The notes beneath the pieces are model-generated. The model was not told the origin of the DNA. It saw only the letters and a list, made by a program, of their open reading frames with translations, and did no database searches. The translations under genes and the position numbers were made by a program. 35,339 bases of DNA from Deltaproteobacteria bacterium (lineage in GTDB: Bacteria > Myxococcota_A > UBA9042 > DTJE01), in assembly GCA_029555025.1 (NCBI GenBank), contig JAKPTZ010000106.1, positions 1 to 35,339 on the forward strand, read 5' to 3'. Below, one piece after another: positions 7,340 through 25,255 of the stretch (positions are counted from its first letter, which is position 1; the number at the start of each line of letters is the position of its first letter).

Positions 7340-7474
7340 CACGCAGTCTCCAGCTTTTTCAATATGTTGCGGTTGGGGTGGCGTTCATGCACCCCGGGCG
7401 TCTGCGCACGATACCACCGAATGACGCGGATTTGAATCAAGGATTAACGTGGCGCGTCAATTATTGCGTGGGGC

Positions 7475-7564
7475 GGGGGCATCCTGCTCGACCGCAGCGG
7501 GCGGATGTAATCCGCCCGTACAAGGAAAGGGGTGGGGGCATCCTGCTCGACCGCAGCGGGCGGA
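7475..7564. repeat. Two 31-bp direct repeats flanking a strong palindrome
   Basis: An exact 31-bp sequence is present at 7475-7505 and 7534-7564. Its core, GCATCCTGCTCGACCGCAGC, occurs in both copies. The end of copy 1 forms a palindrome with arms CGGGCGGAT (7498-7506) and ATCCGCCCG (7510-7518) around a 3-base loop. The block sits between the stop of the hydrolase lipoprotein and the promoter region of the malic enzyme. It resembles intergenic REP-like elements. Related GGGCGG...CCGCCC hairpins occur at 14140-14204. Confidence 0.75.
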
Positions 7565-16129: not shown

Positions 16130-16240
16130 TTCCCCGCGGCGTCCAGTTCAAAAAAGTCCATCGGATGAAAATACGTTTTCGAAATATGTACATGAAATGG
16201 AAATACGCTTTCGTTTTATTGACCCAGCCCCCACGAATTC

Positions 16241-16339
16241 CTTGAAAATGGTAGTTTTCGAGGTGTACCGCCTCTTGAAATAGGATGATTTCGAGGAGTA
16301 CTGCTTCTTGAAAATTGATATTTTCAAGAGTTACAATGC
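16241..16339 (+). repeat. Three tandem 33-bp hairpin repeats upstream of a DUF4143 ATPase gene
   Basis: Units start at 16241, 16274 and 16307, each with CTTGAAA. Within each unit bases 1-8 pair with bases 15-22 around a 6-base centre. Unit A pairs CTTGAAAA with TTTTCGAG, unit B pairs CTTGAAAT with ATTTCGAG, and unit C pairs CTTGAAAA with TTTTCAAG. The position 8/15 pair changes from A-T to T-A in unit B, and pair 3/20 is a G-U-compatible wobble in units A and B. Units A and B agree at 25 of 33 bases and share the GTAC that follows the hairpin. The array ends 29 bp before the ATPase start codon. It is too short and spacer-less for CRISPR. Confidence 0.85.
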
Positions 16340-16368
16340 AACTGTTCATTGGATTCGGGGGTTTGAAC

Positions 16369-17535
16369 ATGATGATTCCCAGGTTTTTCGACGACCTTGG
16401 GCAGTATCTGGCGCCGGGCAAAGTACTTGTCATCTTCGGTGCCCGGCAGGTCGGCAAGACGACGTTGGTCAGGAATTTTCTTCGCAGGTCGTCGCTGAAG
16501 TTCCGTTTTGATTCCGGGGACGACATTCGCATCCAGGAACTGTTTGCGGCTGGTCGCCTGGACCGCCTGCAGGAGTACGCGCAAGGCTTCGATCTGGTCG
16601 TGCTCGACGAGGCCCAACGCGTGCCCGGGATCGGACTGGGCCTGAAGATGATTGTCGACGCCATGCCGGGATTGCAAGTGATCGCGACTGGTTCTTCGTC
16701 TTTTGATCTGGCGGGGCAGGTCGGCGAGCCGCTTACTGGCCGCAAGCGCACGCTGAACCTGTTTCCGGTGGCCCAACTTGAACTGGCGACGATGCATAAT
16801 CGTTTTGACTTGCGGGGAAGACTCGATGAGTACTTGATTTTTGGCGGCTATCCGGAAGTTGTGGCCGCCCAGGGCCGCGATGAAAAAATACGCCTGCTGA
16901 ACGAAATCGCGTCCTCGTACCTGCTGAAGGACGTTCTGGCCCTGGACAACATCAGGAACAGTCGTTCAATCTTCGACCTTCTGCGTCTGCTGGCGCTTCA
17001 AGTCGGCAGCGAGGTGTCCTTGACCGAACTCGGAACACAGGTCGGAATCAGCTATAAGACGGTCGATCGGTACATCGACATACTCGAGAAGTCATTCATC
17101 CTGATGCGTCTTCCCGGCCTGGGGCGCAATCCAAGGACCGACCTGCGTAAGAAGAACAAGTACTACTTCATGGACACCGGGATTCGAAACGCGTTGATAT
17201 CAAATTTCAACCCAACCGACCTGCGAGCCGATTGCGGGCAACTGTGGGAGAACTTCCTTTGCGTCGAGCGAATGAAGCTTCTGTCGTACACGGGGCGTCA
17301 CGCAAATATGTATTTCTGGCGAACCAATCAGGGATCAGAGATCGACCTGGTCGAGGAAGCTGGCGGGGGATTCGCCGGTTTCGAGTTCAAGTGGGGCGTC
17401 AAAGGGCGGTCGCGCCCCAGGGAATGGACCGAATTCGCCCCGAACGGCTCGTGGACCGTCGTCAACAGGGACAACTACCTGGATTTTGTGCTGGAAACGT
17501 CCCTGTTCACTCCACCTGGTCAGCGGGCTCGATGA
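16369..17535 (+). CDS. AAA_14/DUF4143 ATPase with nuclease-fold C-terminus (copy 1)
   Basis: The 388-aa protein has Walker A GARQVGKTT (24-32), Walker B VVLDEAQ with Asp80-Glu81, and a sensor-like ATGSSS. A winged-helix-like part around 210-270 includes LGTQVGISYKTVDRYIDIL. The DUF4143 C-terminus carries a PD-(D/E)xK-type signature: Glu324-x-Asp326, then Glu339-Phe-Lys341. The family is widespread, often multicopy and without a proven role. I chose the first of two adjacent ATGs at 16369, which follows GGGGG by 8 bases; TTG 16315 and ATG 16336 fall inside the repeat array. The last 29 bp overlap the 3' end of the lipoprotein gene on the other strand. A second family member is at 24008-25255; the two share their layout but differ widely in sequence. 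Confidence 0.9.
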   Translation: MMIPRFFDDLGQYLAPGKVLVIFGARQVGKTTLVRNFLRRSSLKFRFDSGDDIRIQELFAAGRLDRLQEYAQGFDLVVLDEAQRVPGIGLGLKMIVDAMPGLQVIATGSSSFDLAGQVGEPLTGRKRTLNLFPVAQLELATMHNRFDLRGRLDEYLIFGGYPEVVAAQGRDEKIRLLNEIASSYLLKDVLALDNIRNSRSIFDLLRLLALQVGSEVSLTELGTQVGISYKTVDRYIDILEKSFILMRLPGLGRNPRTDLRKKNKYYFMDTGIRNALISNFNPTDLRADCGQLWENFLCVERMKLLSYTGRHANMYFWRTNQGSEIDLVEEAGGGFAGFEFKWGVKGRSRPREWTEFAPNGSWTVVNRDNYLDFVLETSLFTPPGQRAR

Positions 17536-20140
17536 ACCCGTAATACCTGGCCATCCAATATGCGGCAAGGACGTCGGCGGCGTCCATCTCGACGTTGTCG
17601 CCCCAGCCGCCCTCGATCTGGAACTGGCTGGTGTTGTGGCGGTCGTTCGGGCGCTCGTCCGACGGGATGATGCGGTTGTCGCTGCGCATGTATCGTTCGC
17701 GGAATTCCGGGCGGTCGATGTAGTACTGCGGCGCCTTGACCAGATCCAGCCGGTGGTTGTTGTGGATATTCCAGCGGATCAGGTCCAGCGGGTACAGCCT
17801 GAACCATCTTTCGCCCAGGTACAGGTTCGGAACGGTTTGGGTAATCACGCCCTGGATGACATCCCAGACGGCCGACTGCTGGGTCTTCAGGTTGTCATAG
17901 ACCGACCGCCAGCCCTTCAGCCAGCGAGCCTTCAGGGCAGCGTCCTGTTCGTACTGAACCAGGATGAAGAACGCCTGGGTCGAAAGTTCGTCGCCGTCGC
18001 CGTTGCCGTGGCGCCCCGGCGGCTCGGTCGAAGTCATGACGTTGTCGTCGTAATGATTTTCGTCGTTCATCAGGAACGCCTTGGCGTCGATGAACTTCTG
18101 GCTGCCCGGCATGTCCAGGGTTTCGCCTTGCTGCAGCTTCGATTCCTGGTCCTGGGTCATGTAAATAGCCAGGTTCATTGCGGCCAGCGTCTGGACCGAT
18201 CTCTGCCCGCCGTCACCAAAAAGTCCAATGAAATTGACGTATCCCGGGTCGAACTGGCCGTAGGTGGTGCACTCGCCGGTCGGGCGCAGCAACTGGTAAT
18301 CGTGGTCGATGATGCCGCCGATGATGTTGCTGACGTGCGCTGCGATGGCATGCTTCTGGGTTTCGTCCGCGCACAGGTCATACGCCGGGCCCATCATGAA
18401 CAGGTGTGACGTGACTTCGTCGTTGGAAGTGTCGGATTTCACCCACCATTCGCCGTCCGGTGACGTGTACCACATGCCGTCGTCCGGGTTGTCGCAGTCG
18501 TCAAGCCGGCAGCCGTCTTTGCGGATGACCGCGCGCGCCAGGAACCAGTCTTCGCCGGTCAGCAGGCGCAGGTTCAGCATGGCCTGCAGGCTGTGGTCGA
18601 AATTCGCCTTTGCCTGTGGGTCGCTGGTTTCCTTCCAGCGCATGCATTCCGCAATCAGCCAATAGCTGGTCCAGCCGCCGTCGTTGTCCGAGTCCCACGG
18701 GATGCTGGTCGAAAGGTCGCCGGGCACGGTCAGGCGGCTGTCGGCAACGGCCCCGTCGCGGTCGTGCCGCAGTTCGATCTTTTCACGCAGCAGGGCCATC
18801 TTGTCTTCAATCGTCATGCGTTCGACGGTCGTCCAGGTCATGCCCGCAGCCGACCCGAAATACACAGGCGAATCGGGGACATCCGGCGTGGTGGCGACCG
18901 CGCGCACGTCGTTGTCAGCCACCCAGCGCAGTGTGTTGTAAAAACGCCACTCGGGGCCGTCGCCGCGGTCGATCATGCGCATGGCGCCGCCCATGGTCGT
19001 GACGATGAACCCGCCGTCGGCCGTTTTCGCCACGTCGGTCGCGCCCGTAAGCGGCACGCGCCCGGCCGCGAACACCGGGATTTCGGCCGGAGCCTGTTCG
19101 TCGGATTCGATGGCCGCGTATCCGGCGATGCCGTCCTGGCCGACGACCACCAGTTCGAGTTCGGACGGGACGCTGACGTCGGCGATCATCTGCCGGATGT
19201 CGGTCACGGGCGACGGAATGGTCGCAATCAGGACATCAAACCTGTCGCTCTGGATGTTGTACTGCCATACTTGGATGACTTCGGTGCCATCGCCGTTGGC
19301 TCCTGCCACATAGATCCTGTCGTGGGCGGCGTTCACCGTGGCGAATTTCACGGCCAGCGTCGTGCCGGTGACGGCCAGGCGGGTTTCCGCGTCGTGGAAC
19401 AGGGCCACGTTGAACTGGTCGGCCACGATGGTCCAGCCGTACGCCTGGGCCACCGACATCACCTGCACGTCGGCGAAGATCATCCAGGATTCAAGCTCGG
19501 GCTGACTTTCATCGTTGTTGATCAGCTTCAACAGCGCGGTCTTCTGGACCACCAGGACATATTCGTCGGTATAGGCGCCGCCCAGCACCGGCCCGTACGT
19601 CGGGTTCACGGCGATCTTCACGGGCTCCCATGTGCCGGGCTCGGCGGGGGCCAGCGGGTCCCGCAGCCAGACGCCGTCGGATGCCAGGATAAGCACGTTG
19701 TCAAAGGGCAGGGGATTATCGACGGGCTTTATCAGTATATCGACGATGTCGGTGATCCGCCGGTCGATCTCGATGCCGGTGTGGTTGATTTCCTGGGCGA
19801 ATTCCTTGTCCTGGATGGGCTGGAAGATTTCATCGGGCTTGACGATGTCACCGCCGGGGATGTCGCCCGCAACGTCGCCCGCATCGATCGCTTCGTCGTC
19901 AGCGGAGTCTTTTGCCACGTCTTCAGCAACGTCGTCATCGGAGTCGCCAACCGTGTCGCCCTGGGTCGTGTCGGTGGTGTCCGGCGCCGCAACGTCTGCC
20001 GTATCGGCAGCCACATCGGCGGCCACCACGTCCGTGTCGCCATCAGGGGTTCCTGAATCACCGCATCCGGCCGCCATCAAAACCGCCGCCGCCCCAAGCA
20101 CCACAAGCATCGTTCTGGAAAGGATCGTCACGCGGTTCAT
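17507..20140 (-). CDS. Lipoprotein with propeller-like middle and helical glycosidase-like C-terminus
   Basis: The 877-aa protein starts with a lipoprotein signal, lipobox MAAGC (Cys26). A spacer of about 75 residues made of Asp, Ala, Thr and Val follows, as in many surface lipoproteins of this lineage. Residues about 120-450 contain repeated short strands, with VLILASDGVWLRD and FIVTTMGGAMRMID, like a beta-propeller. Residues about 490-870 are helical with Trp, Asp and Gly clusters (GGWTSYWLIAECMRW, SHLFMMGPAYDLC, WGDNVEMDAADVLAAYW) and recall six-hairpin (alpha/alpha) toroids of glycan-active enzymes. That assignment is tentative and I cannot name catalytic residues. The ATG follows AGGGGG by 6 bases. 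The leader matches that of the next gene upstream (20278-23784). Confidence 0.85.
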   Translation of the reverse strand: MNRVTILSRTMLVVLGAAAVLMAAGCGDSGTPDGDTDVVAADVAADTADVAAPDTTDTTQGDTVGDSDDDVAEDVAKDSADDEAIDAGDVAGDIPGGDIVKPDEIFQPIQDKEFAQEINHTGIEIDRRITDIVDILIKPVDNPLPFDNVLILASDGVWLRDPLAPAEPGTWEPVKIAVNPTYGPVLGGAYTDEYVLVVQKTALLKLINNDESQPELESWMIFADVQVMSVAQAYGWTIVADQFNVALFHDAETRLAVTGTTLAVKFATVNAAHDRIYVAGANGDGTEVIQVWQYNIQSDRFDVLIATIPSPVTDIRQMIADVSVPSELELVVVGQDGIAGYAAIESDEQAPAEIPVFAAGRVPLTGATDVAKTADGGFIVTTMGGAMRMIDRGDGPEWRFYNTLRWVADNDVRAVATTPDVPDSPVYFGSAAGMTWTTVERMTIEDKMALLREKIELRHDRDGAVADSRLTVPGDLSTSIPWDSDNDGGWTSYWLIAECMRWKETSDPQAKANFDHSLQAMLNLRLLTGEDWFLARAVIRKDGCRLDDCDNPDDGMWYTSPDGEWWVKSDTSNDEVTSHLFMMGPAYDLCADETQKHAIAAHVSNIIGGIIDHDYQLLRPTGECTTYGQFDPGYVNFIGLFGDGGQRSVQTLAAMNLAIYMTQDQESKLQQGETLDMPGSQKFIDAKAFLMNDENHYDDNVMTSTEPPGRHGNGDGDELSTQAFFILVQYEQDAALKARWLKGWRSVYDNLKTQQSAVWDVIQGVITQTVPNLYLGERWFRLYPLDLIRWNIHNNHRLDLVKAPQYYIDRPEFRERYMRSDNRIIPSDERPNDRHNTSQFQIEGGWGDNVEMDAADVLAAYWMARYYGFIEPADQVE

Positions 20141-20179
20141 CTGGAACCCCCTGGAAGACGGTCGATTGTTTCACATAAC
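20141..20179 (-). promoter_or_regulatory. Conserved 5' leader of the 877-aa lipoprotein gene
   Basis: The 16-mer GTTATGTGAAACAATC (minus strand, 20179-20164) is identical to one upstream of the 1168-aa surface protein and lies at exactly the same distance from the start codon. A similar G-rich segment and TTCCAG precede both starts. This suggests a common promoter or leader-binding factor. Confidence 0.55.
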
Positions 20180-20277
20180 CTGCTGCAGGTCACTTACAGG
20201 AATTCAGCGCCATGGTACATTTGCTGCGTCTGTGGGAACGCAGTGGCGGGAATGGAGAAATCGGGATTTTCAGGGCC

Positions 20278-23200
20278 TCAGACGTCCCGGTTGCGCAGGC
20301 GCCGGGCCGACAGTCCAAGCATCATCAGGGCCAGCGTCAGGATTACGGCCAGGGAGTTGCCGCCAGCGCCCGCGTTGCCGCTGCCGTCCGCAGTGCAGCC
20401 ACCGGATCCACCGTCGTCCGGCGTTGACACCGTTTCGCAGGTCCCGGCGGTCCCAACCCATGCCTGGCATTCGAGTCCTTCCGGGCAGTCCGGCGCGTTC
20501 ATGTCACAGGCGGGGCGGCAGGCGCCGGTCCTGCAGACCAGTCCGGTCGTGCATTCCTGGTCGCATGCGCACGTTTCGTCGGTCGCCTGCTGAAGCGTTG
20601 CATCACACGTCTGGGCGATGGCCGCGTATTTCGGGGCCGCGATGTCGCTGACGACGCCGCCGATGAGCGTGTTCCCGATGTAACCTTCAAAAGCCAGCCG
20701 CTGCACCGAGCCCTGGGGGACTGCCGTTGCCGGGCGGATCGTTGCCGTGATATCGGCGGTCGCGCCCGGGTCAAGCGTCACCACCGCCGGCGTCACCGTC
20801 ACGGTCCAGTCCGGCGGCACATCGACGCGCCGAACCCGGATCTCGATGTCTGCCGTGGCTGACGTTGGATTGCCGACTTTGAACGTCGTCATCGTTTCGT
20901 ACATGCGTACCAGTGATGATCTGGCGGTCTCGAGCCGTCCTTCCACGATTCCGAGTGACGGCAGCTTCGCTATCGAAGTCGGGCCCTGATACGCGTTGAA
21001 CATGCCGGCCGCCGAGTAGATCATCCCAAGAGTTCTCCAGGCATCGACAAGCCGGTTCCACTGCGGGAACAAATCGCCGACGTACTGGGAAATCTCGCCG
21101 GTTATCAACTGCTGCCGGTACAACTCAATGTCGTCTTCAGAATATCCGGCCGCTGATGCCGCCTGTTGCTCGAGCACCGTCCAGCCCGACGACGACAGGC
21201 GTGCCAGGAAGTCGTCCACATCGGTCTGGGTCACCAGCAGTTCGGTCGCCCCATCCGTCCGCAGCGCCGCCTGATAGTCCACCAACGCGTCCGCCAGAAT
21301 CAGGTAATGCCCGCCCGCCATCCTCTTGAAGTAATCAAGTGCAGCCACATGGCGTGCCGCCCATTCCATGTCGCCAGCCAGGGTGGCCGCCGCCCACCGA
21401 CGCTGGGCGCTTGCCGCGGCTTTCATGTCCAGCATTACTTCAATGGTCGCATCGTACAGGGCCTGCCCGGCGTCCTGGACCGAAAGTGCCGATACGGCCG
21501 CCCGGAGTTTTCGTGGCGAATACTGCTGGACCGGGGGCTGACCACGCTTTACGGGCGTCCTGAACTGCATGGCATCTTCGTCATCGTCGGATGCCGACCC
21601 AGGGCTTCTGGGGACGCTCGGCAGGGACGTCTGCTGACTGACTTCGGTGGTTGACTCGTTGTTCGAGCCAAAGAAGAAGTTCATTATCGCGTCGAAGCCC
21701 GCGCCGAACCAACTGAAGCTGTCCCCGCCCGACTCGGCGGCCTGTTTTTCGTCGTCACTGGACGAAGAGCCTGGTTCCGCATCCAGATTCTTTGTCTGTT
21801 CACCCGAGAACGAACCGCTGCCGCCATCCCTGTGGATCGGCGTCCCGCTTCCCGGCTGCGGCATCCCCGAGTACGCGAGCCTGACGCAATAGTGGCCCGA
21901 CAGCGGCGGCGTCCACGGTACCGAAATCGTTGTCGTCGCCCCTGCCTCGATCACAACCCCGTTCCGGCTGCCGAGAGGCCCGAACACAAGCCCGATTCCG
22001 CGCTGCGCAATTTCCAGGGTGGCGTCCACGACGATTGGGAATTCGTTCGGGTTGGTCAAGTCCGCGCTGACTGTGCCGGGCACGCCCTGAACGACCGGCA
22101 GCGGCTCGATACGGATCCTGTCGCTGAAATAGGGCGCCTGCGCGTCAGGCAGCAGCGGGTTGGGCGCGGTATCGGCGAATGTAACAGTGGCCGAAGCGAC
22201 GCGGGCCGCTTCGCAAACGCCCTGATCGGTCAGGGTTGCCCCGATTGTCGCGTCGCCGGCCACCGCAGAAGTCAGGTAGGCGTTCGCAGTACCGTCAGCC
22301 CCGGTCACGGCGCCGTCCACCGCCGTACCCAGCGTCGTCGTCAGGTGGACGACCCGCCCGGCCAGTGGTTCCCCGTTGCCGTCCCGCGCGGTCACCTTGA
22401 CCCAGACGCGGGTCGTGGAGTCGGCCGGCGCGAACCAGCGATCGGGCCGCACCTCGACCGATGTGACCGGCAGCGGCGCGGCGGGTCCGGCCTGGCCATC
22501 GGCCGATTCCAGCGCGGGTTTCCAGGCGACCGGTCCGAATATCGGGGTACCGCTGCCGTCCGGGTTGCATGTGTCGTCGGTTGTCGGCCCCGCCGGATGT
22601 CCCCACCAGACATGGGGCGCCAGGATCAGCGCCGTCCCCTTGTTGCGCACCGCGTACCATCCGTCTTCAACTTCGACAAGCTGGCTGGACTCGATGACGG
22701 TGCCAGGCGGGCCATACGCGCGGACCAGATCCATCATGCTCTGCCGAATGATGGAGTGCGAAACTGATGCGGTGGCGTTCGTCAGCATAAGGTTTGCCCC
22801 GATTTTGCCGCCGCCCTCGATGATCACGTGGCGAAGGACCGACCCCTGGTTCGGGGCCTGCTCGGCGCCCTCGATGGAAATTCCGTCCCACGGGTCGGAC
22901 AGCGGGTTGTCCCGCGTTAATGTAATCGGCGCCGCCGCCGTCCCGACCGCCAGAAGGGTTCCGTTCACGACCAGGCCCGTGTAACCCGCAAACTGCAAGG
23001 TCACGCCGGGGTCGATCCGGAATGTCGCGCCGGTCAGCACAAAAACGTCGGAGGTCACGTGGTATGGCAGGCCAAGGTCAGTCCAGTGCCGGTTCCCATC
23101 CATGTTTCCGCCGCCGACCCGGATCGCCTCGATGCCGTTTCCCGACGACGTAATGCCGGAAAGCGAATGTTCGACCCCACCGTATTCAAGGTTCAGCGGG

Positions 23201-23784
23201 TACATCCCGTTCCCCGTCAATGTGACCGACGCCAGGGTAAGCCGAGCGCCGTATCCGGCCCTGATGCCGTCCGAGGTCGCGGGCGCACTGTCCCGAATCG
23301 TCGAATTGGTAATCGTCACGCTGGCGTGATGGATCAGTACGCCGGCCCCGAGTTTGCCGCCGCCTTCGACAATGACGTGGTCAAGCACCGAACCCGAGAT
23401 CGGGGCCTGCTCGGTCCCCTCGATGCCGATGCCGTCCCATGGATCGGACTCCGGGGCGTCCTTGGTGAATGTAATCGGCGCGGCAGCCGTACCCGCCGCG
23501 ACCAGTGTGCCATTGACGACCAGCCCGGAATATCCGGAACACTTGACTGTGACGCCTGGTTCAATGGTAAGGGTCGCGTCCGCCGCCACTTTCAGGTTTC
23601 CAGTCAGCAGATATGGCGACTCGGCAGCCGTCCAGATCACGTCGGTCGAATAGGTCTGGGTACCGACGGTCGTGTCGGCGTTGGCGGGTCCGGCGGTGGC
23701 GACGAAAACGACGGCCAGCAGACCTGGCATCACGCACTTCAGGATCAGCCGGGATACAGCTCTGGTCAGAATTGAACGGCCCAT
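20278..23784 (-). CDS. Beta-helix surface protein with Ig-like domains and a MYXO-CTERM-like sorting tail
   Basis: The 1168-aa protein has a signal peptide ending GPANA (residue 36). Two copies of a right-handed beta-helix module follow (about 45-165 and 240-350), sharing GLVVNGTL, GTAAAPIT and SDPWDGI. Then come a Big_1-like Ig domain with VHLTTTLGT and a second sandwich (about 580-650). A Ser/Asp/Glu-rich linker and a helical region (about 790-1000) follow, then a CARDB/NEW3-like domain (VTLDPGATADITATIRP) and a Cys-rich follistatin/EGF-like knot (CDQECTTGLVCRTGACRPAC). The end has GGC, a Gly/Asn spacer, a hydrophobic segment and RRLRNRD, a layout like the MYXO-CTERM surface-sorting signal. 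It is probably displayed on the cell surface, in adhesion or glycan contact. The ATG follows GGGGG by about 7 bases. Confidence 0.88.
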   Translation of the reverse strand: MGRSILTRAVSRLILKCVMPGLLAVVFVATAGPANADTTVGTQTYSTDVIWTAAESPYLLTGNLKVAADATLTIEPGVTVKCSGYSGLVVNGTLVAAGTAAAPITFTKDAPESDPWDGIGIEGTEQAPISGSVLDHVIVEGGGKLGAGVLIHHASVTITNSTIRDSAPATSDGIRAGYGARLTLASVTLTGNGMYPLNLEYGGVEHSLSGITSSGNGIEAIRVGGGNMDGNRHWTDLGLPYHVTSDVFVLTGATFRIDPGVTLQFAGYTGLVVNGTLLAVGTAAAPITLTRDNPLSDPWDGISIEGAEQAPNQGSVLRHVIIEGGGKIGANLMLTNATASVSHSIIRQSMMDLVRAYGPPGTVIESSQLVEVEDGWYAVRNKGTALILAPHVWWGHPAGPTTDDTCNPDGSGTPIFGPVAWKPALESADGQAGPAAPLPVTSVEVRPDRWFAPADSTTRVWVKVTARDGNGEPLAGRVVHLTTTLGTAVDGAVTGADGTANAYLTSAVAGDATIGATLTDQGVCEAARVASATVTFADTAPNPLLPDAQAPYFSDRIRIEPLPVVQGVPGTVSADLTNPNEFPIVVDATLEIAQRGIGLVFGPLGSRNGVVIEAGATTTISVPWTPPLSGHYCVRLAYSGMPQPGSGTPIHRDGGSGSFSGEQTKNLDAEPGSSSSDDEKQAAESGGDSFSWFGAGFDAIMNFFFGSNNESTTEVSQQTSLPSVPRSPGSASDDDEDAMQFRTPVKRGQPPVQQYSPRKLRAAVSALSVQDAGQALYDATIEVMLDMKAAASAQRRWAAATLAGDMEWAARHVAALDYFKRMAGGHYLILADALVDYQAALRTDGATELLVTQTDVDDFLARLSSSGWTVLEQQAASAAGYSEDDIELYRQQLITGEISQYVGDLFPQWNRLVDAWRTLGMIYSAAGMFNAYQGPTSIAKLPSLGIVEGRLETARSSLVRMYETMTTFKVGNPTSATADIEIRVRRVDVPPDWTVTVTPAVVTLDPGATADITATIRPATAVPQGSVQRLAFEGYIGNTLIGGVVSDIAAPKYAAIAQTCDATLQQATDETCACDQECTTGLVCRTGACRPACDMNAPDCPEGLECQAWVGTAGTCETVSTPDDGGSGGCTADGSGNAGAGGNSLAVILTLALMMLGLSARRLRNRDV

Positions 23785-23823
23785 CTGGAATCCCCCGAAA
23801 GATGCCTGATTGTTTCACATAAC
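23785..23823 (-). promoter_or_regulatory. Conserved 5' leader of the 1168-aa surface protein gene
   Basis: It carries GTTATGTGAAACAATC (minus strand, 23823-23808), identical in sequence and in distance to the start codon (24 bases from the 3' end of the 16-mer to the start) to the leader at 20141-20179. The rest of the gap to 24007 holds the ATPase repeat array. Confidence 0.55.
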
Positions 23824-23904
23824 AAGTTGTGCGGCCATCCCCGGTGCGCGAAACCCGACGAGACATAATTGGTTTCCCCGATTTCGACAACTGCACACTG
23901 AAAC

Positions 23905-23970
23905 CTTGCAATTGGACGAATCGAAACTTGCAATTGGACGAACTGAGGCTTGCAATTGGACGTATCTAAG
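23905..23970 (+). repeat. Three tandem 22-bp iteron-like repeats upstream of a DUF4143 ATPase gene
   Basis: Units begin at 23905, 23927 and 23949 with the invariant CTTGCAATTGGACG, followed by 8 less conserved bases (AATCGAAA, AACTGAGG, TATCTAAG). The core contains the palindromes TTGCAA and CAATTG. The period is two helical turns, so all copies face one side of the DNA. The array ends 37 bp before the ATPase start codon. Confidence 0.9.
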
Positions 23971-24007
23971 GCCATAATCAGACAAGGCTTTTGGTGGTAG
24001 TGGATTA

Positions 24008-25255
24008 ATGTCTGATAAGACGTTGTATCCCAGATTTCTGCGTTCACGGGTTGAAGATGCGCTGACGGATTCCCCGGTTGTCCTGATTCACGGCCCCAGG
24101 CAGTGCGGCAAGACCACTCTGGCCCGCATGGTGGGGGACGATTCGGGATACGCCTACCTGACTTTTGACGATGACGTTCAACGTTCGTCGGCCAGAACGG
24201 ATCCCGTTGGATATGTGGCCGATTTGCCCGACAGGGTGATACTCGATGAAGTACAACGAGTCCCGGAACTGTTTACTGCCATCAAGGTTGCCGTGGACAG
24301 TCGCCGCAAGCCGGGTTCATTCATCCTTACAGGATCGGCCAATGTTCTTCTGGTTCCCCGTCTTGCGGACTCCCTGGCTGGAAGAATCGAAATCCTTCGG
24401 CTGCATCCGCTGTCCCGGGCTGAATTGGTCGGAAGGGCTTGCAACTTCCTGGCAACATTGTTCGGGGCCGGCTTCAAGGCTGGACAGTCCGGGCAACGTC
24501 TGGGAAATGTACTGGCTGAACATATTGTCGGTGGCGGCTATCCGGCCGCCCTGGCCCGTGCAACCTGCCACCGACGGGCCCTTTGGTATCGGGATTATGC
24601 CGATACACTTATTCAGCGCGATATCCAGGACTTGGCCCGAATCAGGGCGCTCGACGCCTTGCCGCGCCTGCTGGCATTGGCAGCGGGGCAGACCGCAAGC
24701 CTGATCAACGTGTCCGAACTCGCGGCCCCGTTCCAGGTCAGCCGCCAGACCATCCGTGAATATCTGACCCTGTTGTCACGGATATTTTTGCTGGAAGAAT
24801 TGCCGCCCTGGCACAGCAATCAACTGAAACGCCTGGTTAAGACCCCGAAGCTGCACATCGGTGATACGGGGTTGGCCTGCGCCCTTATGGGTGCCAATCC
24901 TGGCTCGCTGTGGATGGATCGTCCGTTGTTCGGCAGGTTGCTGGAAAGCTACGTATATCAGGAATTGCGGCGTCTGGCGTCTTTCCGTGATGAATCCACC
25001 ACGTTCTATCATTTTCGCGACAAGGATCAGGTTGAAGTGGATCTTGTGATCGAGTCGGAAGGCCTGGTGGCCGGTGTCGAGGTCAAGGCGGCATCAACGG
25101 TGACTACCGCGGATTTCAAAGGGCTTCGCAAGCTCAAGGACGCCGCTGGAAGTCGTTTTGTCTGTGGTGTGGTGCTGTATGACGGCGCTGCCGTTGCAGG
25201 CTTTGGTGAAAGACTTTACGCAGTTCCGGTTTCCAGGCTCTGGAATGACGAGTGA
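24008..25255 (+). CDS. AAA_14/DUF4143 ATPase with nuclease-fold C-terminus (copy 2)
   Basis: The 415-aa protein has Walker A GPRQCGKTT (29-37), Walker B VILDEVQ with Asp80-Glu81, and LTGSAN as sensor. A winged-helix-like stretch (LAAPFQVSRQTIREYLTLL) precedes the DUF4143 part. The nuclease-like signature is Glu343-x-Asp345 and Glu358-x-Lys360 (QVEVDLV then GVEVKAA), which follows the E-x-D...E-x-K order of PD-(D/E)xK folds. ATG 24008 is the only start with a full P-loop domain. The ribosome-binding site is weak (GGA close to the ATG). The stop lies 18 bp from the end of a convergent Asp-rich lipoprotein gene. The biological role is unknown; a regulatory, mobile or defence role is possible. 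Confidence 0.92.
   Translation: MSDKTLYPRFLRSRVEDALTDSPVVLIHGPRQCGKTTLARMVGDDSGYAYLTFDDDVQRSSARTDPVGYVADLPDRVILDEVQRVPELFTAIKVAVDSRRKPGSFILTGSANVLLVPRLADSLAGRIEILRLHPLSRAELVGRACNFLATLFGAGFKAGQSGQRLGNVLAEHIVGGGYPAALARATCHRRALWYRDYADTLIQRDIQDLARIRALDALPRLLALAAGQTASLINVSELAAPFQVSRQTIREYLTLLSRIFLLEELPPWHSNQLKRLVKTPKLHIGDTGLACALMGANPGSLWMDRPLFGRLLESYVYQELRRLASFRDESTTFYHFRDKDQVEVDLVIESEGLVAGVEVKAASTVTTADFKGLRKLKDAAGSRFVCGVVLYDGAAVAGFGERLYAVPVSRLWNDE

Follow-up and report, generated by a model that had tools for sequence, protein, structure and literature searches.

Two ATPase-nuclease genes and their repeat arrays

The analyzed window (the whole stretch of 35,339 nucleotides) carries two genes for putative ATPase-nuclease proteins, each preceded by an array of repeated units. 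The features, by position in the window, are:

16241–16273, + strand: array 1, unit 1, 33 bp, imperfect inverted repeat CTTGAAAA..TTTTCGAG
16274–16306, + strand: array 1, unit 2, arms CTTGAAAT..ATTTCGAG, both sides altered relative to unit 1
16307–16339, + strand: array 1, unit 3, arms CTTGAAAA..TTTTCAAG, bearing the predicted promoter
16308–16337, + strand: predicted sigma-70-like promoter of gene 1 (TTGAAA, 18 bp, TACAAT)
16369–17535, + strand: gene 1, AAA_14, winged helix and DUF4143 nuclease domain; start at 16369 or 16372
23906–23927, + strand: array 2, unit 1, TTGCAATTGGACG plus 9 bp
23928–23949, + strand: array 2, unit 2
23950–23971, + strand: array 2, unit 3, source of the predicted −35 box (TTGCAA)
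23972–23984, + strand: array 2, degenerate unit 4, CCATAATCAGACA; under the score threshold of the 80-locus scan
23973–23978, + strand: predicted −10 box (CATAAT) of gene 2, within degenerate unit 4
24008–25255, + strand: gene 2, AAA_14, winged helix and DUF4143 nuclease domain
24656–24859, + strand: predicted winged-helix region, gene 2 codons 217–284 (AlphaFold2 model, mean pLDDT 91.5)
24743–24781, + strand: predicted recognition helix, gene 2 codons 246–258 (AlphaFold2 model)
24746–24748, + strand: residue 247 of gene 2, at the beginning of the recognition helix and covarying with base 2 of the unit
25034–25087, + strand: E-V-D...E-V-K of the PD-(D/E)XK-type site, gene 2 codons 343–360

AAA_14 and DUF4143 score above the Pfam curated cut-offs in both proteins; direct reading finds intact Walker A/B residues and, as claimed by an earlier sequence-only reading, intact E-x-D...E-x-K residues. 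In the family of gene 2, E343 and K360 are invariant among 66 sequences, and D345 and E358 are present in at least 90%. Both proteins, of the AAA_14–DUF4143 (COG1373-like) type, match, end to end, models of PDC-S01, a candidate defence family of PADLOC: PDLC04789 for gene 1 (E 4e-136, residues 2–374 of 388) and PDLC04790 for gene 2 (E 5e-162, residues 5–413 of 415), hence the protein part of the module proposed as undescribed belongs to a known family. Apart from the AAA and DUF4143 domains, the domain search lists a single weak HTH match and no Rep initiator domain; the NCBIfam search gives zero matches, and the sequence search against solved structures yields P-loop-level matches only (best E 0.003). 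Both genes indeed stand tail-to-tail with lipoprotein-like genes (lipobox judged by eye), and gene 1 and its neighbour overlap by 29 bp.

Array 1 consists of three imperfect inverted repeats with a period of exactly 33 bp; array 2, of three 22-bp units that are direct repeats only, followed by a degenerate fourth unit (23972), overlooked in the earlier count. The claim of exactly three repeats holds for the full units of both window arrays and is not general, relatives having 2–8 units. The first bases CTTG(A/C)AA and the distances from array end to start codon (29 and 37 bp) agree with the earlier description, while the supposed period of a whole number of helical turns does not, as 22, 23, and 33 bp only approximate whole turns of 10.5 bp each.

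Array 2 has the top score (90) of the 16 TRF rows in the window; array 1 is missing from the TRF output even at the lowest threshold. Self-comparison of the window at lags 18–60 gives the arrays scores of 28.0 and 24.2, with 15.6 for the best of 12 dinucleotide shuffles, which rules out chance repeats in the window; the arrays rank second and third, behind a 59-bp repeat at 7470 (33.8). Exact copies of the units are found nowhere else in the genome, all three occurrences being in the gene's own array; neither a regulon nor dispersed sites are seen. In a congeneric genome, a gene 83% identical to gene 1 is accompanied by an array of identical period whose unit is related; the other DNA flanking that gene shows zero blastn match to the window.

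The only sigma-70-like promoter found beside each gene sits within its array. For gene 1, it is the sole promoter-like site in the scanned region 16150–16420, a prediction that is weak alone because shuffles average 0.7 such sites; for gene 2, 0.5 sites are expected in shuffles, and the prediction alone does not exceed them.

Arrays in the family of gene 2

The family of gene 2 was analyzed at 80 loci, the window copy and 79 named relatives with 50–100% identity. The unit is present at least twice at all 80; its spacing is 22 or 23 bp in 200 of 209 cases, and 79 of the 80 loci have such a spacing. Unit sites are strongly oriented (289 forward, 6 reverse, with a background of 0.19 per kb). Conservation of unit and spacing at 80/80 loci rules out chance tandem duplication for this family.

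At 43 of the 80 loci, the last unit ends 0–4 bases before the start codon. These start-abutting units strongly prefer A at base 3 (40/43, vs. 58/238 of the others, p = 5e-18), and 33/43 of them, vs. 31/238 of the others, contain the −10-like TAC(A/G)NT; the last unit there usually reads as a −10 box. Shine–Dalgarno-like sites are seen at 2/80 loci vs. 51/214 control genes.

The rows with a named phylum (n = 59) cover 17 phyla, and the phylum label changes 30 times along the tree (34.5 on average after shuffling), hence, array and gene move together. Such strong horizontal spread, the different flanks in the congeneric genome, and arrays located also downstream of the gene (L232, L247, and G360) would suit a mobile-element end, at which the gene's own nuclease cuts, excises, or inserts DNA. 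Downstream arrays are unaccounted for by a plain operator; no second DUF4143-type gene was found in G360. However, flank scans detect adjacent unit pairs outside the gene's own upstream array at only 4/80 loci besides L255, where they are an extension of the locus's own array, so that arrays at both ends are rare; moreover, the last unit has the shape of a −10 box, no empty site has come up in these analyses, and we consider the mobile-element end very unlikely. At L197, L244, and L255, the array is located a long distance upstream of where the match begins.

Correlation of units with the recognition helix

Protein–DNA covariation at the recognition helix is present in the family of gene 2: unit base 2 and residue 247, chosen after the scan, are the first of 5,810 base–residue pairs. 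Pro247 with a base other than T at position 2 is absent among 77 rows (the other cells containing 48, 19, and 10), a pattern seen in 0 of 9,638 accepted runs of the tree simulations. In held-out loci, the rule is kept in 11/11 (exact p = 0.002); 18 of the 29 held-out loci have no unit by the matrix and, by eye, show other repeats or inverted repeats. Of the 50 top pairs, 11 fall in the winged helix, barely above the 9 expected, and several of the top pairs link the period to residues outside it; the independent-pairs test has just 3–4 usable pairs.

The earlier suggestion that each ATPase has its own cognate repeat is strengthened by these data: exact units occur only at the gene's own array, all 80 loci have an array, and the unit covaries with the helix. 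The same facts bear on the possibility that a host regulator, and not the encoded protein, uses the repeats as operators. Global regulators can have tandem operators; however, the exact unit here is confined to its own gene, varies among paralogues within a genome, accompanies the gene across 17 phyla, and covaries with the recognition helix, making a host regulator very unlikely.

Repeats at other DUF4143 genes

Gene starts in the broader DUF4143 family often bear tandem repeats or a single inverted repeat. At z ≥ 3, tandem or inverted repeats are present at 55/112 DUF4143 genes of the phylum and 42/60 of other genomes, compared to 16/214 controls, hence, repeats are commoner here than at control genes, and the refuting outcome named in the sequence-only reading does not arise. 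The 214 controls exclude array-overlapping regions; they do include a DUF4143 paralogue at least once (L196, minus strand, 5297, with the same inverted repeat as L412), which biases the comparison against the claimed contrast. The first, looser comparison agrees in part: z ≥ 5 is reached by 19/114 genes vs. 3/80 controls, whereas the rank test over all z yields p = 0.10; the three array-bearing genes of that control set (80 genes) are divergent neighbours sharing the same two arrays. Among the 13 DUF4143 genes of this genome, six have no repeat at z ≥ 3, one of which (L012) does show a repeat in the looser comparison. Units differ among paralogues of one genome.

The many DUF4143 genes without a repeat and the p-value of 0.10 could suggest tandem duplications that persist by chance near promoters and have no specific function. 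This reading is barely credible given the excess over controls in both gene sets, the conserved unit and spacing at 80/80 loci with protein identities of 50–77%, and, for array 1, its conservation beside the 83% identical relative.

Comparison with known systems

PDC-S01, an ATPase fused to a PD-(D/E)XK member, is described as the fourth commonest putative defence system in prokaryotes, with experimental validation pending for most PDCs; its putative function rests on gene neighbourhood, and operator, repeat, and DNA target are unmentioned in the accessible parts of that article (PMC12988326). The available portions of PMC12988326, PMC13356809, and PMC4406477 mention no upstream repeats. The protein family is already known; for the operator itself we found no description in these texts.

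By fold, the closest proteins are the archaeal STAND-type ATPases PABY2304 (2qen; residues 1–295, Z 15.6, rmsd 4.2, 255 aligned) and SSO1545 (2fna; residues 1–295, Z 14.7, rmsd 4.5, 251 aligned), with 16–19% identity and the C-terminal nuclease domain hardly covered; we know of no operator for either. The NLR/apoptosome ATPases CED-4, RPP1, and WRR4A likewise combine an NTPase with a winged helix (Z 12–13). The winged helix of NLR/apoptosome proteins governs switching and assembly, not sequence-specific DNA binding. The modelled NTPase and winged helix thus resemble known STAND proteins, a likeness of fold only.

Winged-helix proteins that read repeats are known from other systems. AbiEi represses its own defence operon at repeats; in AbiE (type IV toxin–antitoxin), it is a separate antitoxin, whereas here regulator, ATPase, and nuclease domain form one chain. 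Plasmid Rep proteins read ~22-bp iterons, and archaeal Orc1/Cdc6, likewise a winged-helix protein, is encoded beside its origin repeats. These systems share with ours a gene start marked by tandem repeats of ~22 bp or by an inverted repeat, and an iteron-type module, with the repeats as sites where the ATPase starts or restricts replication or partitions DNA, would explain the unit length, this layout, and the combination of AAA+ with a winged helix; Foldseek matches include Cdc6/Orc1 and RuvB, and 264 of 72,556 plasmid records contain relatives (E ≤ 1e-30). Nevertheless, such a module is highly improbable: a nuclease domain stands in place of the Rep domain, the genes are numerous (up to 19 per genome) and located mainly on chromosomal contigs, many DUF4143 genes have a single inverted repeat only, and the units contain the promoter and overlap the start codon.

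Proposed autoregulation

The array is most likely an autoregulatory operator, a role absent from the proposals of the sequence-only reading. This view builds on what was observed: the arrays themselves, their association with the gene in many phyla, a −10 box inside them, and covariation with the recognition helix. The putative operator lies at the gene's own predicted promoter, is unique in the genome, and travels with the gene. We consider it probable, judging from sequence, that each gene is a mobile one-gene module, an ATPase-nuclease that binds this private operator through its own winged helix and represses its own promoter.

Each gene would then be a self-contained mobile unit comprising a STAND-like ATPase, a winged helix, a PD-(D/E)XK-type nuclease domain, and an operator. 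The winged helix may bind the repeated units in a regular row, one protomer or dimer each; because the predicted −35 and −10 boxes lie within the last two units, binding would exclude RNA polymerase and keep nuclease levels low. Release of the protein, whether engaged elsewhere or switched by a nucleotide or trigger, would open the promoter. The DNA target of each gene can thus be predicted, as can a residue for specificity (247, paired with unit base 2). If true, autoregulation would account for a dozen nuclease paralogues per genome without cross-talk and place a STAND-type switch in direct connection with its own promoter; operator reporters could be used to seek the natural trigger.

Pairs of units at 22/23 bp also occur in 50 viral contigs (36 clusters), compared to 2 and 10 clusters for wrong-spacing pairs and three contigs for the complement pattern; a second unit variant is found in 21 viral contigs, forming only five clusters, vs. 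one. No DUF4143-type gene was found in the DNA fetched from the 50 contigs. These gene-less pairs might be decoys or sensors if the array serves as a scaffold for in-register assembly of an NLR-like ATPase-nuclease, each protomer taking up 22, 23, or 33 bp. The protein, with a private address per paralogue, would then be kept switched off at its own promoter until competing or invading DNA releases it; we regard this extension of the operator model as unlikely.

An imperfect inverted repeat is also seen at the start of the DUF4143 gene TT_P0211 of Thermus. According to the accessible part of PMC4406477, this gene is 6.6-fold up in the Argonaute-bearing strain with a plasmid present; repeat and induction together are suggestive only.

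The Two Genes and Their Upstream Arrays

The window, contig C9 of a 3.49-Mb genome in 158 contigs, carries two genes with adjacent repeat arrays:

16241, 16274, and 16307: array 1, three 33-bp units, each an imperfect inverted repeat
16369–17535, + strand: gene 1, AAA_14 + DUF4143 protein (protein 1)
23906, 23928, and 23950: array 2, three 22-bp units, plus a degenerate fourth unit at 23972
24008–25255, + strand: gene 2, AAA_14 + DUF4143 protein (protein 2)

In self-comparison of the window the arrays score 24.2 and 28.0, against a best score of 15.6 in 12 dinucleotide shuffles. Both arms of unit 2 of array 1 are altered (A to T and T to A). Just upstream of array 1, at 16168–16181 and 16200–16212, another, diverged repeat has its inverted arms GAAAATACGTTTTC / GAAATACGCTTTC 32 bp apart, possibly old units or another operator. 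Among tandem repeats at lags 18–60, the window's highest score belongs to a direct repeat of 36 bp with copies 59 bp apart (7470–7564).

Both proteins belong to PADLOC PDC-S01, which PMC12988326 describes as a candidate defence family, discovered through "guilt by embedding" and not validated, that ranks fourth in abundance among prokaryotic defences (9,986 archaeal and 29,494 bacterial instances). The structure model of protein 2, built from a 66-row alignment (mean pLDDT 91.5), has archaeal STAND-type ATPases as its nearest solved folds, followed by NLR and apoptosome ATPases; the matches span mainly residues 1–295 and hardly cover the C-terminal domain. In the same alignment, E343 and K360 of the putative nuclease domain show no variation, and D345 and E358 are conserved in at least 90% of rows.

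Repeats Upstream of DUF4143 Genes

The sequence-only reading had pointed to triple repeats before DUF4143 ATPases, and an association of these genes with tandem or inverted repeats holds against control genes. Repeats (tandem at lags 20–24 and 31–35, or inverted; z ≥ 3 over dinucleotide shuffles in a fixed window from −125 to +15) are found beside 55/112 of the phylum's DUF4143 genes (21 tandem, 40 inverted) and 60 of 79 genes of gene 2's family, all tandem, compared with 16/214 control genes (5 tandem, 11 inverted). A fresh set from 25 other named genomes yields 42/60 (p = 3e-22), or 33/49 without the 11 genes of gene 2's subfamily; its tandem lags are 22 (eight genes), 23 (nine), and 32 (one). 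In the genome of the window 7 of 13 DUF4143 genes qualify; among the other six, locus L012 shows a repeat of 33 bp (z = 10.5) when the wider region of the first comparison is used. That first and broadest comparison gave z ≥ 5 for 19/114 DUF4143 genes vs. 3/80 controls, with p = 0.10 in a rank test over all z; many genes show nothing. Repeats at the gene start are a real, general feature of a known, abundant candidate defence family.

The putative operators of the inverted-repeat type often start with CCTTGAAAAT or CCTTGCAAT (e.g., L106, L129, L433, and L438), the same CTTG(A/C)AA start noted in the sequence-only reading. At the start of a DUF4143 gene of Thermus thermophilus pTT27, TT_P0211, stands an imperfect inverted repeat (L267, 11054–11106); the gene is reported to be 6.6-fold up in the Argonaute-bearing strain with a plasmid (PMC4406477).

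Arrays Among Relatives of the Two Genes

From at least 539 confirmed candidates in a search of genome contigs, 80 relatives of protein 2 were retained; the 80 scored loci include the window and omit L203, where the gene starts at base 1 of the sequence. A matrix refined over successive iterations (consensus TT-A/G/T-CAAT-Y-R-G-M-CG) served to score the units. Each of the 80 loci has at least two units (2 to 8, mode 3), 79 loci show 22- or 23-bp spacing, and 200/209 successive spacings are 22 (51) or 23 bp (149). Unit sites number 289 forward vs. 6 reverse, with a background of 0.19 per kb. At three loci (L197, L244, and L255) the array is far upstream of the match start. Gene 2 is present in 31/377 genomes of the phylum, and was not found at E 1e-60 in the one congeneric genome searched. 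The 59 phylum-named rows cover 17 phyla; along the tree the phylum label changes 30 times, against a minimum of 16 and a mean of 34.5 in shuffles, the lowest of which gave 30.

Relatives of gene 1 occur in 5 of the 377 genomes, its own included. The congeneric copy, 83% identical, has two 33-bp units of related sequence, and in a copy from another family, 59% identical, the three 33-bp units differ in sequence; hence, units diverge while their period stays with the protein clade. The flanks of the congeneric copy gave no blastn match to the window, that contig reaching just 60 bp beyond the array on the upstream side.

Covariation of the Unit and the Recognition Helix

Mutual information with average-product correction was calculated for 13 unit bases and the period vs. 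415 residues (66 rows, 5,810 pairs). The top pair joins unit base 2 to residue 247, where the predicted recognition helix (246–258) begins, and the third-ranked pair links base 3 with the same residue. Here, T2 accompanies Pro247 in 42/42 rows, and all 14 non-T rows have Gln, Asn, or Lys. Counting against this, the second and several further ranks link the period to residues elsewhere in the protein, and the winged helix is hardly enriched among the top 50 pairs (11 vs. 9 expected).

The matrix detects units in 11 of 29 held-out loci, and there Pro247 occurs with T2 in 6/6 and non-Pro with non-T in 5/5 (exact p = 0.002); the remaining 18 show other repeats or inverted repeats by eye. All 77 rows comprise 48 (Pro, T), 19 (non-Pro, non-T), 10 (non-Pro, T), and 0 (Pro, non-T). 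When the tree is built from the protein minus its winged helix, the pair shows 12 and 13 changes, and all 9,638 accepted simulations with an independent base leave at least one row in the (Pro, non-T) cell; an independent-pairs test had just 3–4 usable pairs.

Predicted Promoter Within the Array and Proposed Mechanism

Each array holds its region's only sigma-70-like match (TTGAAA-18-TACAAT in array 1, TTGCAA-17-CATAAT in array 2); since 0.7 and 0.5 such sites are expected in shuffles, these matches are weak alone. Comparison across gene 2's family provides strong evidence for a predicted promoter in the array. A unit ends 0–4 bases before the start in 43/80 loci, starts being those of the tblastn match (ATG or GTG in 60/80). 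Base 3 is A in 40/43 of these start-abutting units vs. 58/238 others (p = 5e-18), and the string TAC(A/G)NT occurs in 33/43 vs. 31/238. Shine-Dalgarno-like sites are found at 2/80 loci of the family, compared with 51/214 control genes and 25/112 DUF4143 genes of the phylum. Due to these −10-like strings at the start and the few Shine-Dalgarno-like sites, many genes of the family look leaderless; gene 2 of the window, with about 30 bases from the predicted −10 to ATG, is not leaderless by this reading.

Alongside the observed linkage, phasing, embedded −10 box, and covariation, we propose that the winged helix of each protein would bind its own units in a regular row; the bound protein would cover its promoter and keep expression low, and its release would open the promoter. 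Precedents are AbiEi autorepression, Rep–iteron modules, and Orc1/Cdc6 origins. A private operator per gene would let a dozen paralogues coexist in one genome without cross-regulation. As far as literature searches show, such a predicted self-cognate operator on a STAND-like ATPase-nuclease is undescribed.

Observations Not Fitting a Plain Operator, and a Possible Cassette Array

At L232 and L247, additional unit arrays are present downstream of the ATPase gene, as they are in genome G360 (contig C153, 3420–3521; L340 and L344), where no second such gene was found in approximately 1.5 kb beyond. Ten unit pairs occur in the 377 phylum genomes: five directly upstream of a relative, four in the G360 downstream array, and one, in genome G256, with no relative in the DNA examined.

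In viral contigs (L268–L317), right-spaced (22/23 bp) gene 2 unit pairs form 36 clusters, and in none of these does the DNA examined include the gene; wrong spacings give 2 and 10 clusters, and the complement pattern 3 contigs. TT precedes both units in six clusters. A second unit variant (5 clusters vs. 1) is a weak replicate. The gene itself has few viral relatives: two peptide patterns gave 10 contigs (26–44% identical), and 7 of 50,697 phage records contain one. Some viral unit pairs adjoin phage genes, just before them.

Elsewhere in the genome of the window (contig C4, L467, 744–8301), five 78-nt repeat copies, 64–86% identical and in the same orientation, are spaced by 1317, 1772, 1350, and 1323 bp and bound successive one- or two-gene units. 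These comprise three DUF4143 genes and two AbiE-like pairs (AbiEii by Pfam), some being 87–89% duplicates of each other, and the stretch resembles a defence-gene cassette array.
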